This document shows positions 9,308 through 42,091 of a stretch of DNA of 44,040 nt, in pieces. The position numbers and the translations under genes were made by a program. Below the pieces are notes generated by a model. That model saw nothing but the letters and a program-made list of their open reading frames with translations, was not told the DNA's origin and searched no databases. This DNA comes from Halorussus litoreus. GTDB taxonomy: Archaea; Halobacteriota; Halobacteria; Halobacteriales; Haladaptataceae. Location of the stretch: NCBI RefSeq assembly GCF_003382685.1, contig NZ_QLVG01000051.1:1-44040 (forward strand), in the 5' to 3' direction. Position 1 is the stretch's first letter. Each line of letters begins with the position of its first letter.

Positions 9308-9498
9308 AACCGTTCGCTGGGCTCCGGACCGGTGTGGTGTGCATCCGAGTGGTCCACTCAGACGCTCGCCCTGATTCCCACCGTCGGCGCGCGCTGGTTC
9401 GTCCTCCACCCCGGCGCGCGCTGGCGCGCTCCTCGTGAGCGCGCCCATGCGTGCGAGGGACGAGTCGCGCAAGGAGGAGCGTAGCGACGACTGAGCAA

Positions 9499-9517
9499 CG
9501 CAGGAGGCTGGGGAGGT
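9499..9517 (+). repeat. Intergenic repeat family B, copy 1
   Basis: The 19-mer CGCAGGAGGCTGGGGAGGT, followed by CTGAGGCT, recurs inverted at 35597-35615 (followed there by TCGAGGCT). It lies in the large non-coding gap between the HFX_2341-type gene and the DUF2240 gene, in a stretch rich in GC palindromes (9395-9450). Confidence 0.55.
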
Positions 9518-9527
9518 CTGAGGCTCG

Positions 9528-9576
9528 CGCTCGGTGCCACTGTCCACCGGGATGTGCTCGACCGACCAGCTGATTG
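9528..9576 (-). repeat. 27-nt hairpin-unit repeat 3' of structured element copy 1
   Basis: Read on the minus strand, GGTCGAGCACATCCCGGTGG begins a 27-nt unit, and CACCGAGCGCGAGCC starts exactly 27 nt later. Same register and consensus as the arrays near 22690, 19221 and 41956. Confidence 0.55.
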
Positions 9577-9580
9577 TTTG

Positions 9581-9720
9581 GGTGGATGAAAGGGGCCGCC
9601 AGCTCGCGAGCCGCAGGCCCGTGGTCGTCTCAGCGCGGCCACTATTCGCGGCTCGGGCGGTGCGGAGTGAGCCGCGAATATCCCGCTGAGCGACCGCGAG
9701 CGGGCGGGGGCTTTCTAACC
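9581..9720 (-). ncRNA. Structured repeat element family A, copy 1 (candidate RNA)
   Basis: On the minus strand it begins TTAGAAAGCCCCCGCCCGCT and ends CCCCTTTCATCCACCC. GAAAG pairs with CTTTC. Inside are GGTCG/CGACC, CTCAGCG/CGCTGAG and the conserved A-TATTC...GAATA core, with an apical GCGGCTC-type hairpin. The internal loop is the larger variant (GGA opposite GTGGCC) also seen in copy 4. It lies in the divergent gap between the HFX_2341-type gene and the DUF2240 gene. On its 5' side (9721-9920) is a low-complexity stretch rich in ACNGCN triplets that resembles the 5' flank of copy 5. Confidence 0.72.
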
Positions 9721-10870: not shown

Positions 10871-10952
10871 AGCACCCAAGTTCTCGAAAGCCCTCGGCGC
10901 GCTCTCCGACAACCGAACAGCACCCAAGTTCTCGAAAGCCCTCGGCGCGCTC
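10871..10952 (+). repeat. 34-bp direct repeat duplicating the 5' end of element copy 2
   Basis: Identical 34-bp segments at 10871-10904 and 10919-10952, each beginning AGCACCCAAGTTCTCGAAAG and ending GGCGCGCTC. Each contains the GAAAGCCC start of element family A, so the 5' arm is duplicated just before the degenerate copy 2. Confidence 0.8.
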
Positions 10953-11045
10953 GACCGGCCGGGACTCGCTGCGCTCCTCGGCTTTCGGCCTGCGGTGCTT
11001 ACTTCGTCCGGGCCGGGTCGAGCGCGCTTCGCCCTTTCATCCGCC
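10934..11045 (+). ncRNA. Structured repeat element family A, copy 2 (degenerate)
   Basis: Starts GAAAGCCCTCGGCGCGCTCG and ends CGCCCTTTCATCCGCC. The outer arms still pair (GAAAG/CTTTC; GCGCGCTCGACC against GGTCGAGCGCGC), but the conserved ATATC/GATAG core and 9-bp helix are gone, replaced by a GCTGCGCTCC...GGCCTGCGG stretch. Located between convergent genes. Confidence 0.6.
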
Positions 11046-11059
11046 AGGGGAGCAACTGG

Positions 11060-11109
11060 TTCACCGGTCGAAACTGACAGCTGATTCACCTGCCGAAACC
11101 GGCGGACGG
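11060..11109 (+). repeat. Two 25-nt hairpin units 3' of element copy 2
   Basis: TTCACCGGTCGAAACTGACA (from 11060) and TTCACCTGCCGAAACCGGCG (from 11085) are spaced exactly 25 nt. The same unit recurs singly at 33775 (TTCACCGGCCGAAACCGGTG). Confidence 0.6.
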
Positions 11110-11133
11110 TCGGACACATCGCCTGAAAACAAT

Positions 11134-11790: not shown

Positions 11791-11926
11791 GGGTCGGGCT
11801 TGGGCCGACGACCTCTTCATACCTGCGGGAGTGACTCTGTCTTCGGCGCGGGCGACGGTCCGGACAGCAGGGCTCGGAGAAGCGCGATTGACCACGGGCG
11901 TCAGCAGGTGACGAAATCAACTCCCT

Positions 11927-12040
11927 GGCGGACTGAAAGGGCGAGACGCGTTCAGTTCAGTCGCCGAGGAACCCCTATCCGTCGCAACTACGTCCGTCGG
12001 ATATGTTCCTCAGCGACCGCGAACGCGCCGAGGGCTTTCG
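11927..12040 (-). ncRNA. Structured repeat element family A, copy 3
   Basis: On the minus strand: GAAAGCCCTCGGCGCGTTCG at the start and CGCCCTTTCAGTCCGCC at the end. The central helix is CTGAGGAAC paired with GTTCCTCGG (one G-T wobble), different from the CTCAGCGAC/GTCGCTGAG of copies 5 and 7, yet the A/GGG internal loop and TATCCG...CGGATA stem are retained. CGCGTTC/GAACGCG forms the lower stem. It lies between the zf-HIT and HAD genes, all on one strand. At 114 nt it is the shortest intact copy. Confidence 0.75.
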
Positions 12041-19001: not shown

Positions 19002-19020
19002 GAAAGCCCCCGCCCGCTCG
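19002..19020 (+). repeat. Orphan 5' fragment of element family A
   Basis: GAAAGCCCCCGCCCGCTCG repeats the first ~19 nt of element copies 1, 4 and 5, but is followed by unrelated sequence (TAGACCCTTTGG). It lies 75 nt before copy 4, a situation like the duplicated 5' arm at copy 2. Confidence 0.5.
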
Positions 19021-19076
19021 CTAGACCCTTTGGCCAGTCTCCTCACACCAGCGACAATTGTGAACGAGAACATTTT

Positions 19077-19203
19077 GAAAGCCCCCGCTCGCTCGCGGTC
19101 GCTGTGCGGGATATCTCGCGGGCGCAGAACTGCGCCCGCGAGATAGTAGCCACGCACAGGCGACCAAGTAGAACGCGAGCGAGCGGCCCCTTTCAGTCCA
19201 CCC
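19077..19203 (+). ncRNA. Structured repeat element family A, copy 4
   Basis: Starts GAAAGCCCCCGCTCGCTCGC and ends GGCCCCTTTCAGTCCACC. The lower stem CGCTCGC/GCGAGCG, GGTCG-like and GCGACC arms, and CTGTGCG/CGCACAG helix (again different from other copies but paired) lead to the A-TATC...GATA core. The apical stem is a perfect 16-bp hairpin, TATCTCGCGGGCGCAG with loop AA (19112-19145). The internal loop is the larger variant. Located between convergent genes (18904 and nurA). Confidence 0.75.
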
Positions 19204-19220
19204 CGACTGATGAATAATGA

Positions 19221-19265
19221 GCCGAGCGCGTCCCGGTGGACCGTCGCACTGAGCGGGCCCCGAAA
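19221..19265 (+). repeat. 27-nt hairpin units 3' of element copy 4
   Basis: GCCGAGCGCGTCCCGGTGGA starts a 27-nt unit and CACTGAGCGGGCC begins the next at the same register. The consensus matches the arrays near 22690 and 41984. Confidence 0.55.
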
Positions 19266-19381
19266 CGTACCTACCGGCTCGCCGTCGCTAATCGACGTTT
19301 CGTTGCGCCCAGAACGGCGTAGCCGTGTGCGGAACGCGTACGCCGAGCGAAGCGAGGCGTTTCACCGACGGCGAGGCCGAA

Positions 19382-22479: not shown

Positions 22480-22673
22480 GAAAGCCCCGCCCGCTCGCGG
22501 TCGCTCAGCGACATATCCTCGCTCGCTGTCGCTCGCCGACAGACGGTCCTCGTCGCGTTGCTCCTCGGCTGCGACTGCCGAGGTCACACTCGCTTCGCTC
22601 GCGTGACCGCTCGGATAGGGGTCGCTGAGACGACCGAACTGAACGCGAGCGGGCGGCCCCTTTCAGTCCACCC
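22480..22673 (+). ncRNA. Structured repeat element family A, copy 5 (long apical domain)
   Basis: Starts GAAAGCCCCGCCCGCTCGCG and ends GGCCCCTTTCAGTCCACC. GGTCG (22499-22503) pairs with CGACC (22631-22635) and CTCAGCGAC (22504-22512) with GTCGCTGAG (22621-22629). A22513 faces GGG (22618-22620), then TATCC pairs with GGATA. The apical region is about 94 nt with its own palindromes (GTCACACTCGCTTCGCTCGC), the longest of all copies. It lies in the divergent gap between idi and carB. Confidence 0.8.
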
Positions 22674-22689
22674 AAACGGTGATCTCGGT

Positions 22690-22770
22690 CACCGAGCGTT
22701 TGCCGGTGGATAGCCCCACAGAGCGAAGCCACGTGGATTAAATCACCGAGCGCCCGCGCGCCGGCGCGCA
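22690..22770 (+). repeat. Three 27-nt units in perfect register 3' of element copy 5
   Basis: Units start at 22690 (CACCGAGCGTTTGCCGGTGG), 22717 (CACAGAGCGAAGCCACGTGG) and 22744 (CACCGAGCGCCCGCGCGCC), exactly 27 nt apart. Units 1 and 2 have the CACCG/CGGTG-type inverted ends; unit 3 runs into a long hairpin. Confidence 0.75.
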
Positions 22771-33602: not shown

Positions 33603-33731
33603 GAAAGCCCTCGGCGCGCTCGCGGTCGCTGAGCGACATATCCTCGGTTCGCTTCGCTCACCTCGGATAGGGGTCGCTCAGACGACCACGGGCCTGCGGC
33701 CCGCGAGCCCGCCTCGCCCTTTCAGTCCACC
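33603..33731 (+). ncRNA. Structured repeat element family A, copy 6
   Basis: GAAAG (33603-33607) pairs with CTTTC (33719-33723); GGTCG (33624-33628) with CGACC (33683-33687); CTGAGCGAC (33629-33637) with GTCGCTCAG (33673-33681). A33638 faces GGG (33670-33672) and TATCC (33639-33643) pairs with GGATA (33665-33669). The tail is CCCTTTCAGTCCACC. A 3' sub-stem GGGCC..GGCCC is also present. It lies in the divergent gap between gpmI and the dehydrogenase gene. Confidence 0.8.
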
Positions 33732-33747: not shown

Positions 33748-33799
33748 GGTCCAGCGGTCGACATTGGCGGCTGTTTCACCGGCCGAAACCGGTGGTCGA
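33748..33799 (+). repeat. Hairpin units 3' of element copy 6
   Basis: TTCACCGGCCGAAACCGGTG at 33775 is the same unit as the pair at 11060/11085. A degenerate unit (CCAGCGGTCGACATTGGCGG) starts about 26 nt before it. Confidence 0.55.
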
Positions 33800-33844
33800 T
33801 ATTTGTTCGTTCGACCGACTCCGGCCGGTCCCGTTGAGGTACAG

Positions 33845-39798: not shown

Positions 39799-39921
39799 GA
39801 AAGCCCTCGGCGCGCTCGCGTCGCTCAGCGACATATCTGACGGACGTGGTTGCGTCAGATAGGGGTCGCTGAGTCGACCACGGCCTTCGGCCGCGAGCCC
39901 GCCTCGCCCTTTCAGTCCACC
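39799..39921 (+). ncRNA. Structured repeat element family A, copy 7
   Basis: GAAAG (39799-39803) to CTTTCAGTCCACC (end 39921). CTCAGCGAC (39824-39832) pairs with GTCGCTGAG (39865-39873); A39833 faces GGG (39862-39864); TATCTGACG (39834-39842) pairs fully with CGTCAGATA (39853-39861), giving the tidiest apical stem. A 3' sub-hairpin GGCC-TTC-GGCC is present. It lies between the zinc-finger gene and the rhodanese gene. Confidence 0.8.
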
Positions 39922-39935
39922 AGGAAGTCGGTTGA

Positions 39936-39963
39936 TTCACCGAGCGAAGATGGGCTCTGGTGG
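39936..39963 (+). repeat. Single hairpin unit 3' of element copy 7
   Basis: TTCACCGAGCGAAGATGGGC then TCTGGTGG: CACC..GGTG ends and spacing fit the 25-27 nt unit seen after the other copies. Confidence 0.45.
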
Positions 39964-40009
39964 CACGTATCTGAACACTGCGGACCCGCAGGAGATCGAG
40001 CACTGCGCG

Positions 40010-41813: not shown

Positions 41814-41938
41814 GAAAGCCCCCGCCCGGTCGCGGTCGCTCCGGCGGATATTCTCGCGCCTCGCTCCGCTCGGCGCTCCGAATAGGGCCGCCGGAGGCGA
41901 CCACGTAAACGCGACCGGGCGGCCCCTTTCAGTCCGCC
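41814..41938 (+). ncRNA. Structured repeat element family A, copy 8
   Basis: GAAAG (41814-41818) pairs with CTTTC (41926-41930); CGCCCGGTCGC with GCGACCGGGCG forms the lower stem; GGTCG (41834-41838) pairs with CGACC (41898-41902). The central helix CTCCGGCGG (41839-41847) pairs with CCGCCGGAG (41888-41896), a wholesale change from CTCAGCGAC/GTCGCTGAG that keeps every pair. A41848 faces GGG (41885-41887) and TATTC pairs with GAATA. The tail is CAGTCCGCC. Confidence 0.82.
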
Positions 41939-41955: not shown

Positions 41956-42091
41956 CAGCGAGCGCGTCCTCAGGGGAATGTATCACCGAGCGCGTCCCCG
42001 TGGAAGGCGTCACTGCGGGTTCCCCCGTGGTCTGTCGCACCGAGCTTCTGCCGGTGGTCTGTCGCACCGGGCGCATCCCCGTGGACTGCAA
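41956..42091 (+). repeat. Array of five 27-28 nt units 3' of element copy 8
   Basis: Units start at 41956, 41984, 42011, 42038 and 42065; the last four are exactly 27 nt apart. Best unit: CACCGAGCTTCTGCCGGTGG followed by TCTGTCG. This is the longest array in the window. It is tandem without spacers, so not a CRISPR. Confidence 0.8.

Follow-up and report, generated by a model that had tools for sequence, protein, structure and literature searches.

We estimate, with a probability of about 0.65, that the 27-nt units of this stretch form the module at the 3′ end of a palindromic mobile element that is non-autonomous and distributed class-wide in Halobacteria. The window, i.e., the whole 44,040-nucleotide stretch that was analyzed, corresponds to contig C32 of a Halorussus genome of 3.84 Mb and holds eight copies of the element. 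In the copies, a ~120-nt hairpin core carries at least one unit at a fixed distance, and the length and sequence of the unit follow the subtype of the core. In the explanation that we propose, the element would be moved in trans, part of subtype B probably by an IS6-family transposase and the remaining copies by some other enzyme, and after insertion the end motif may be multiplied on both sides by local tandem duplication.

Subtype-specific units on the 3′ side of the core

The longest array in the window belongs to copy 8, whose type A core (GAAAGCCCCCGC...GGCCCCTTTCAGTCC; 41814–41935, + strand) has covarying stems and matches our core model R1 at 41814–41938. Five units follow on the same strand, with spacings of 28, 27, 27, and 27 nt. 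The first (41956–41983, 28 nt) starts with CAGCGAGCG at offset 23 after CTTTCAG; the second (41984–42010), fourth (42038–42064), and fifth (42065–42091), each of 27 nt, are identified by unit sequence and weight matrix; and the third (42011–42037, 27 nt) is degenerate (CACTGCGGG) and in register. Copy 5 (+ strand), a type A core with an internal insert (22480–22669; R1 match), is followed at 22690–22759 by three units that start at 22690, 22717, and 22744 (spacings of 27 and 27 nt), the third being cut by a palindrome. Two 27-nt units follow each of the other type A cores, namely, copy 4 (core 19077–19199, + strand, R1, 132 bits; units 19220–19273, starting at 19220 and 19247) and copy 1 (core 9581–9715, − strand, R1 match; units 9510–9563, − strand). 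In copy 1, the units are followed by a second repeat, module D (9413–9516, − strand; R3 match).

The type B copies carry 25-nt relatives of these units. Copy 2 (+ strand), recognized by its sequence, has a core with a replaced interior (10934–11044) and two units (11062–11111); copy 3 (− strand) has a core at 11927–12039 (R1 match) and one unit at 11886–11910 (offset 22); copy 6 (+ strand) has a core at 33603–33728 (R1 match) and two units at 33752–33801 (offsets 26 and 51); and copy 7 (+ strand) has a core at 39799–39918 (R1 match) and one unit at 39938–39962. The unit counts of the first-pass annotation for copies 1, 4, 5, and 8 are thus recovered, as are the 25-nt relatives that it had placed after copies 2, 6, and 7, and copy 3 has one as well.

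Genome-wide, units were detected using weight matrices trained on the element flanks, with a threshold of 10. Elements with at least one unit number 22 in type A and 24 in type B. The type A consensus is CACCGAGCGC-nnnC-cgGtGG-acngtnc with a period of 27, and the type B unit is CACCGgcCGaaACtGGngGttGgtc with a period of 25; the 3′ flanks show autocorrelation peaks at the same lags of 27 (A) and 25 (B). The first unit lies ~22 nt from the hairpin, mostly 19–24 nt past CTTTCAG for type A and mostly at offset 21–26 for type B. Within 250 nt on the 3′ side, we found 59 type A units on the same strand vs 3 on the other, and 40 type B units vs 0, while the 250 nt on the 5′ side hold none and one, respectively. 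Spacings below 35 nt are 27 (26 times), 26 (6 times), and 28 (once) for type A, and 25 (12 times), 26 (once), and 28 (once) for type B. Altogether, this placement is far above chance.

The unit is also tied to the subtype of its core. When each locus was excluded from its own matrix, unit type equaled core type in 44/44 cases, with 21 A cores scoring best with A units, 23 B cores with B units, and none crosswise; 10 further cores had no unit score of 7. Since unit type always follows core type, the unit belongs to the element and not to its target. The fixed offset, the fixed strand, and this match of types support the earlier suggestion that element and units make up one composite entity in which the unit number varies.

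Occurrence of the units independently of the element at similar frequency had been named as the result that would speak against such an entity. A sequence model of two units, searched against the whole genome at E<1e-3, gave 35 matches. Of these, 30 immediately follow the 3′ end of an intact core with matching strand, 4 adjoin what is left of a core, and the last one belongs to the tail of a D repeat. The arrays on contigs C25, C31 (two matches), and C30 adjoin deleted or shrunken cores, that on C50 is the D tail, and at 63.7 kb of contig C6 a further array, of six units, comes after a core of which a deletion has left GAAAGCCC|GTCCGCCC. Since the off-element arrays adjoin remnants or D, arrays outlive cores, and none of those examined arose away from an element. 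A difference in unit number between two records of Halorussus amylolyticus (L100 and L177) was set aside, because it has no element near it and seemed to be an assembly artifact.

The further claim that the unit folds into a small hairpin finds no support in covariation: no nested covarying columns were seen within 94 A units and 40 B units, and the unit as a hairpin was rejected on this basis. The units are conserved as sequence at fixed spacing, not as hairpins. The motif CACCGAGCG..GGTGG and the spacing are kept while the unit sequence diverges, with neighboring units only ~57% alike. Because sequence and spacing are kept and pairing is not, we regard the unit as a putative protein-binding end sequence. 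The haloarchaeal Orc box is TTCCAGTGGA; a likeness of the unit to it was dropped, as the similarity is not kept in the units of relatives.

These same properties would also fit selected, iteron-like sites, in which a chromosomal protein binds each 25–27-nt unit cooperatively beside the hairpin and, for example, organizes or silences the locus or regulates its neighbors. The conserved motif and spacing argue for such sites, as do the recurrence of a 27-nt period in the tails of the unrelated D element and some orientation bias relative to genes. Based on simple ORF calls, copies of the source genome lie in 26 vs 8 tandem contexts (p=0.003), a moderate bias that could reflect a function in cis and that we count against the mobile-element reading; in other genomes the bias is weaker (24 vs 18). 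However, the number of units ranges from 1 to about 9, with many copies carrying one, close relatives carry other unit sequences, the D tails are weakly periodic, and no protein was identified, and we therefore consider this explanation unlikely.

The hairpin core and module D across genomes

The core that the units accompany runs from GAAAGCCC to CTTTCAGTCC over 110–132 nt, with prominent inverted ends (GAAAG...CTTTC), and a search with R1 finds ~60 copies in the source genome. It folds into a single long hairpin with three covarying helices. In an alignment of 112 copies from the source and other genomes, 97.6% of the pair cells are paired and 372 cells show double changes, vs a shuffled mean of 104; the signal is lost when the alignment is slid by one column. 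The two subtypes are told apart by the base of the stem, which reads CCCCCGC...GGCCCC in A and CCCTCGG...CTCGCCC in B. Model matches number 7 (8 with copy 2) in the 44 kb of the window, vs 0.72 expected, an excess with a Poisson P (≥8) of ~1e-6 when the expectation is taken from the genome average. Several cores, at 22520–22610 in the window and at L004, L028, L029, and L030, contain ~50-nt palindromic inserts (CGGAAGAC..GTCTTCCGAGGTCACRCTCGCTTCGCTCGCGTGACC), and it looks as if cores are themselves targets of still smaller repeats.

Core matches occur in at least 123 of 391 genomes across the class Halobacteria, a lower bound because few candidates were scored per genome. Their occurrence is patchy, also between species of the genus Halorussus, where the count per genome runs from none detected to 59 or more. 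Outside the class, the exact pattern matched twice, at L081 (Methanoliparum) and L168; we rejected L081 as a real core, as its sequence looks like a chance match.

Module D, with the consensus CCTCCCCARCC...CATCCCTCGCRCG...CAGCRCRCGCC, is the second repeat family. It contains a covarying hairpin. At 43 of the 80 loci from other genera, chiefly Halosimplex, it lies 40–118 nt 3′ of the core, and at none of the 80 is it on the 5′ side. Between core and D, Halosimplex has a linker of ACCGCA-like repeats and Halorussus one made up of 27-nt units; five type A copies of the source genome have a D. Alone, D has more than 100 copies in the source genome (e.g., L286–L315), mostly without a core, and looks like another undescribed palindromic element. 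It often stands in inverted pairs ~150–180 nt apart around a center CTCAAGCAGTAGCTAGCTT...AAGCTAGCTACTGCTTGAG.

This arrangement bears on the suggestion of a repeat-carrying RNA. In such a reading, the core, alone or within a ~300-nt transcript of core, linker, and D, would act as a structured RNA, and the units would be a variable linker. The strong covariation of the core, the covarying hairpin of D, and the order fixed in 43/80 loci of other genomes are consistent with such an RNA. Nevertheless, when one helix-end pair is left aside, the + strand shows 34 A-C mismatches vs 15 G-T mismatches, which is the reverse of the expectation for an RNA of that strand; the excluded pair has a G-T excess in the opposite direction, so there is no consistent strand signal. 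D, in addition, mostly occurs without the core and often as inverted pairs, and a search of Rfam over the element gave nothing above or near the gathering cut-off. For the units, this half of the first-pass suggestion is not supported, as there is no covariation inside them, and we judge the RNA explanation as a whole to be improbable. Elsewhere in the window, the same database identifies a C/D box RNA, sR-tMet (RF02163; 36619–36691, + strand, 59.7 bits).

The tails of D show an autocorrelation peak at lag 27, with weak periodicity, and 9 matches to the A unit follow D ends, vs a shuffled mean of 0.7. From this lag and these matches, it follows that two different elements share an end motif and its period. 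The core and D families might then form a previously undescribed system shared in Halobacteria, in which a single protein recognizes a common ~27-nt end motif and is responsible both for the movement of the elements and for the growth of their ends into phased arrays; we consider this extension doubtful, and just as doubtful its consequence, a mechanism of transposition and end maintenance with no known counterpart.

Probable mobility and local amplification

The mobile-element half of the first-pass suggestion is the better of its two options and is supported by an empty site. The element at 41.8 kb is missing from the orthologous site in five relatives; aligned with G006 and G015, which have short intergenic DNA between two gene starts at this position, the insert measures ~350 nt. 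It is further supported, for a subset of copies, by IS6-type ends. Paired inverted ends like AGTGTTCAGATAMG / GGTAGTGTTCAGATA enclose the core at ten type B loci, where they are 209–354 nt and mostly ~217 nt apart; in the window, an exact match to such a terminal repeat (AGTGTTCAGATACG) lies at the 3′ end of copy 7 (39966–39979, − strand). An 8-bp target duplication is complete at L046 (8/8; CGTTCTTC), nearly so at L277 (7/8), and matches at no more than 6/8 positions at other loci. The same terminal repeats occur on IS6-family transposons of related Halorussus species, and 14/18 genomes of the genus have some match to the transposase domain PF13610; the source genome has 0.

IS6-type ends are absent from most B copies and from every A copy. 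For subtype A, a terminal repeat and a target duplication were looked for and neither was found, and no transposase was identified, which we count against the mobile-element reading. Orthologous sites share copies between species in Halosimplex and Natronomonas, which indicates that movement or turnover is slow. A viral origin received no support from a pattern search of IMG/VR or a blastn search of phage records.

An element derived from IS200/IS605 (PATE/REP type), whose ends an HUH transposase would recognize as single-stranded hairpins, would share with the repeats of Haloquadratum its palindromic, non-coding nature and many copies (PMC3119063). However, there is no HUH (Y1) transposase in the source genome, nor in five relatives (G001, G002, G009, G010, and G016) that each have 33–59 or more cores, and the four TnpB loci of the source genome are without core ends; weight-matrix matches near TnpB turned out to be parts of coding sequence. 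We rejected this origin as very improbable, and for present-day movement it is already largely refuted.

Returning to the non-autonomous mobile element, its iteration is not confined to the units. The first-pass claim that units always lie 3′ of the structured element holds genome-wide, but the 5′ side of the core iterates too, and the D tails have a 27-nt period of their own. On the 5′ side, a repeat is made up of the initial ~20 nt of the core together with flanking sequence and is 47–48 nt long in B and 72–75 nt in A in the source genome and 51–57 nt in the relative G005. Copy 4, with GAAAGCCC 75 nt upstream of its core (19002–19076, + strand), and copy 2, in which the start of the core recurs without change 48 nt upstream (10886–10933, + strand), are examples in the window.

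In G005, the 5′ copies are identical or nearly so within a locus but not from one locus to the next, and the same is true of the 3′ units. Within-locus identity of units exceeds between-locus identity in every set tested by permutation (0/300, 1/300, and 0/300 permutations). One array of the source genome repeats an exact 81-nt trimer. At an orthologous locus of Halosimplex, there are four 5′ repeats (L110) vs two in another species (L151), the core's own start being counted. Such locus-specific, near-identical arrays indicate local tandem amplification, probably through slippage at the hairpin base or unequal exchange, although a constant 27-nt spacing between neighbors that are ~57% alike suggests that pure slippage is insufficient. 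If the proposed explanation is right, a large share of haloarchaeal intergenic repeats (~60 cores and more than 100 D here) would be families of undescribed hairpin elements, and each locus would keep a record of end amplification. The phased, subtype-specific units would then be a probe for capturing the binding protein and a handle on the movement of short palindromes in archaea.

Comparison with known systems

We found no earlier description of the element in Rfam or the open literature searched, and a search on REP-like repeats and IS6 MITEs in haloarchaea gave nothing closer than the work on SMRs, PATEs, and MITEs of Haloquadratum. The 5′ arrays resemble CRISPR in their repeat-spacer look, with a ~20-nt constant and a ~35-nt variable part; since the variable parts, which would be the spacers, hardly differ or do not differ at all within a locus, the arrays are tandem duplications and CRISPR was rejected. 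REP/BIME sequences moved by RAYT are likewise short intergenic hairpins with many copies and tandem units, but here there is no RAYT/Y1 gene and the units do not form hairpins. IS6-family MITEs resemble about ten of the subtype B loci, which have ends like GGTAGTGTTCAGATA and, in one case, a perfect 8-bp duplication, whereas most B and all A copies are without such ends and the core is class-wide without them.

The small mobile repeats SMR-A (HqIRS42/43/55) of Haloquadratum walsbyi are ~110 bp long and non-coding with inverted ends, insert into the near-terminal palindromes of IS605/PATE, and are commonly >95% alike (PMC3119063). The Halorussus element is similar to them in length, non-coding nature, inverted ends, and tens of copies per haloarchaeal genome, as well as in having no known mobilizer and, for subtype A, no target duplication seen. 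Compared by description, it differs in lying between genes, in having two subtypes that have diverged, in the covariation of its stems, and in the iteration of its ends; insertion into IS605/PATE palindromes was not seen here, where there are only 4 TnpB loci, none with core ends. As such, the element is best seen as a variant of the non-autonomous palindromic mobile repeats, with SMR-A as the nearest known case, set apart by subtype-specific, phased, and iterated ends.
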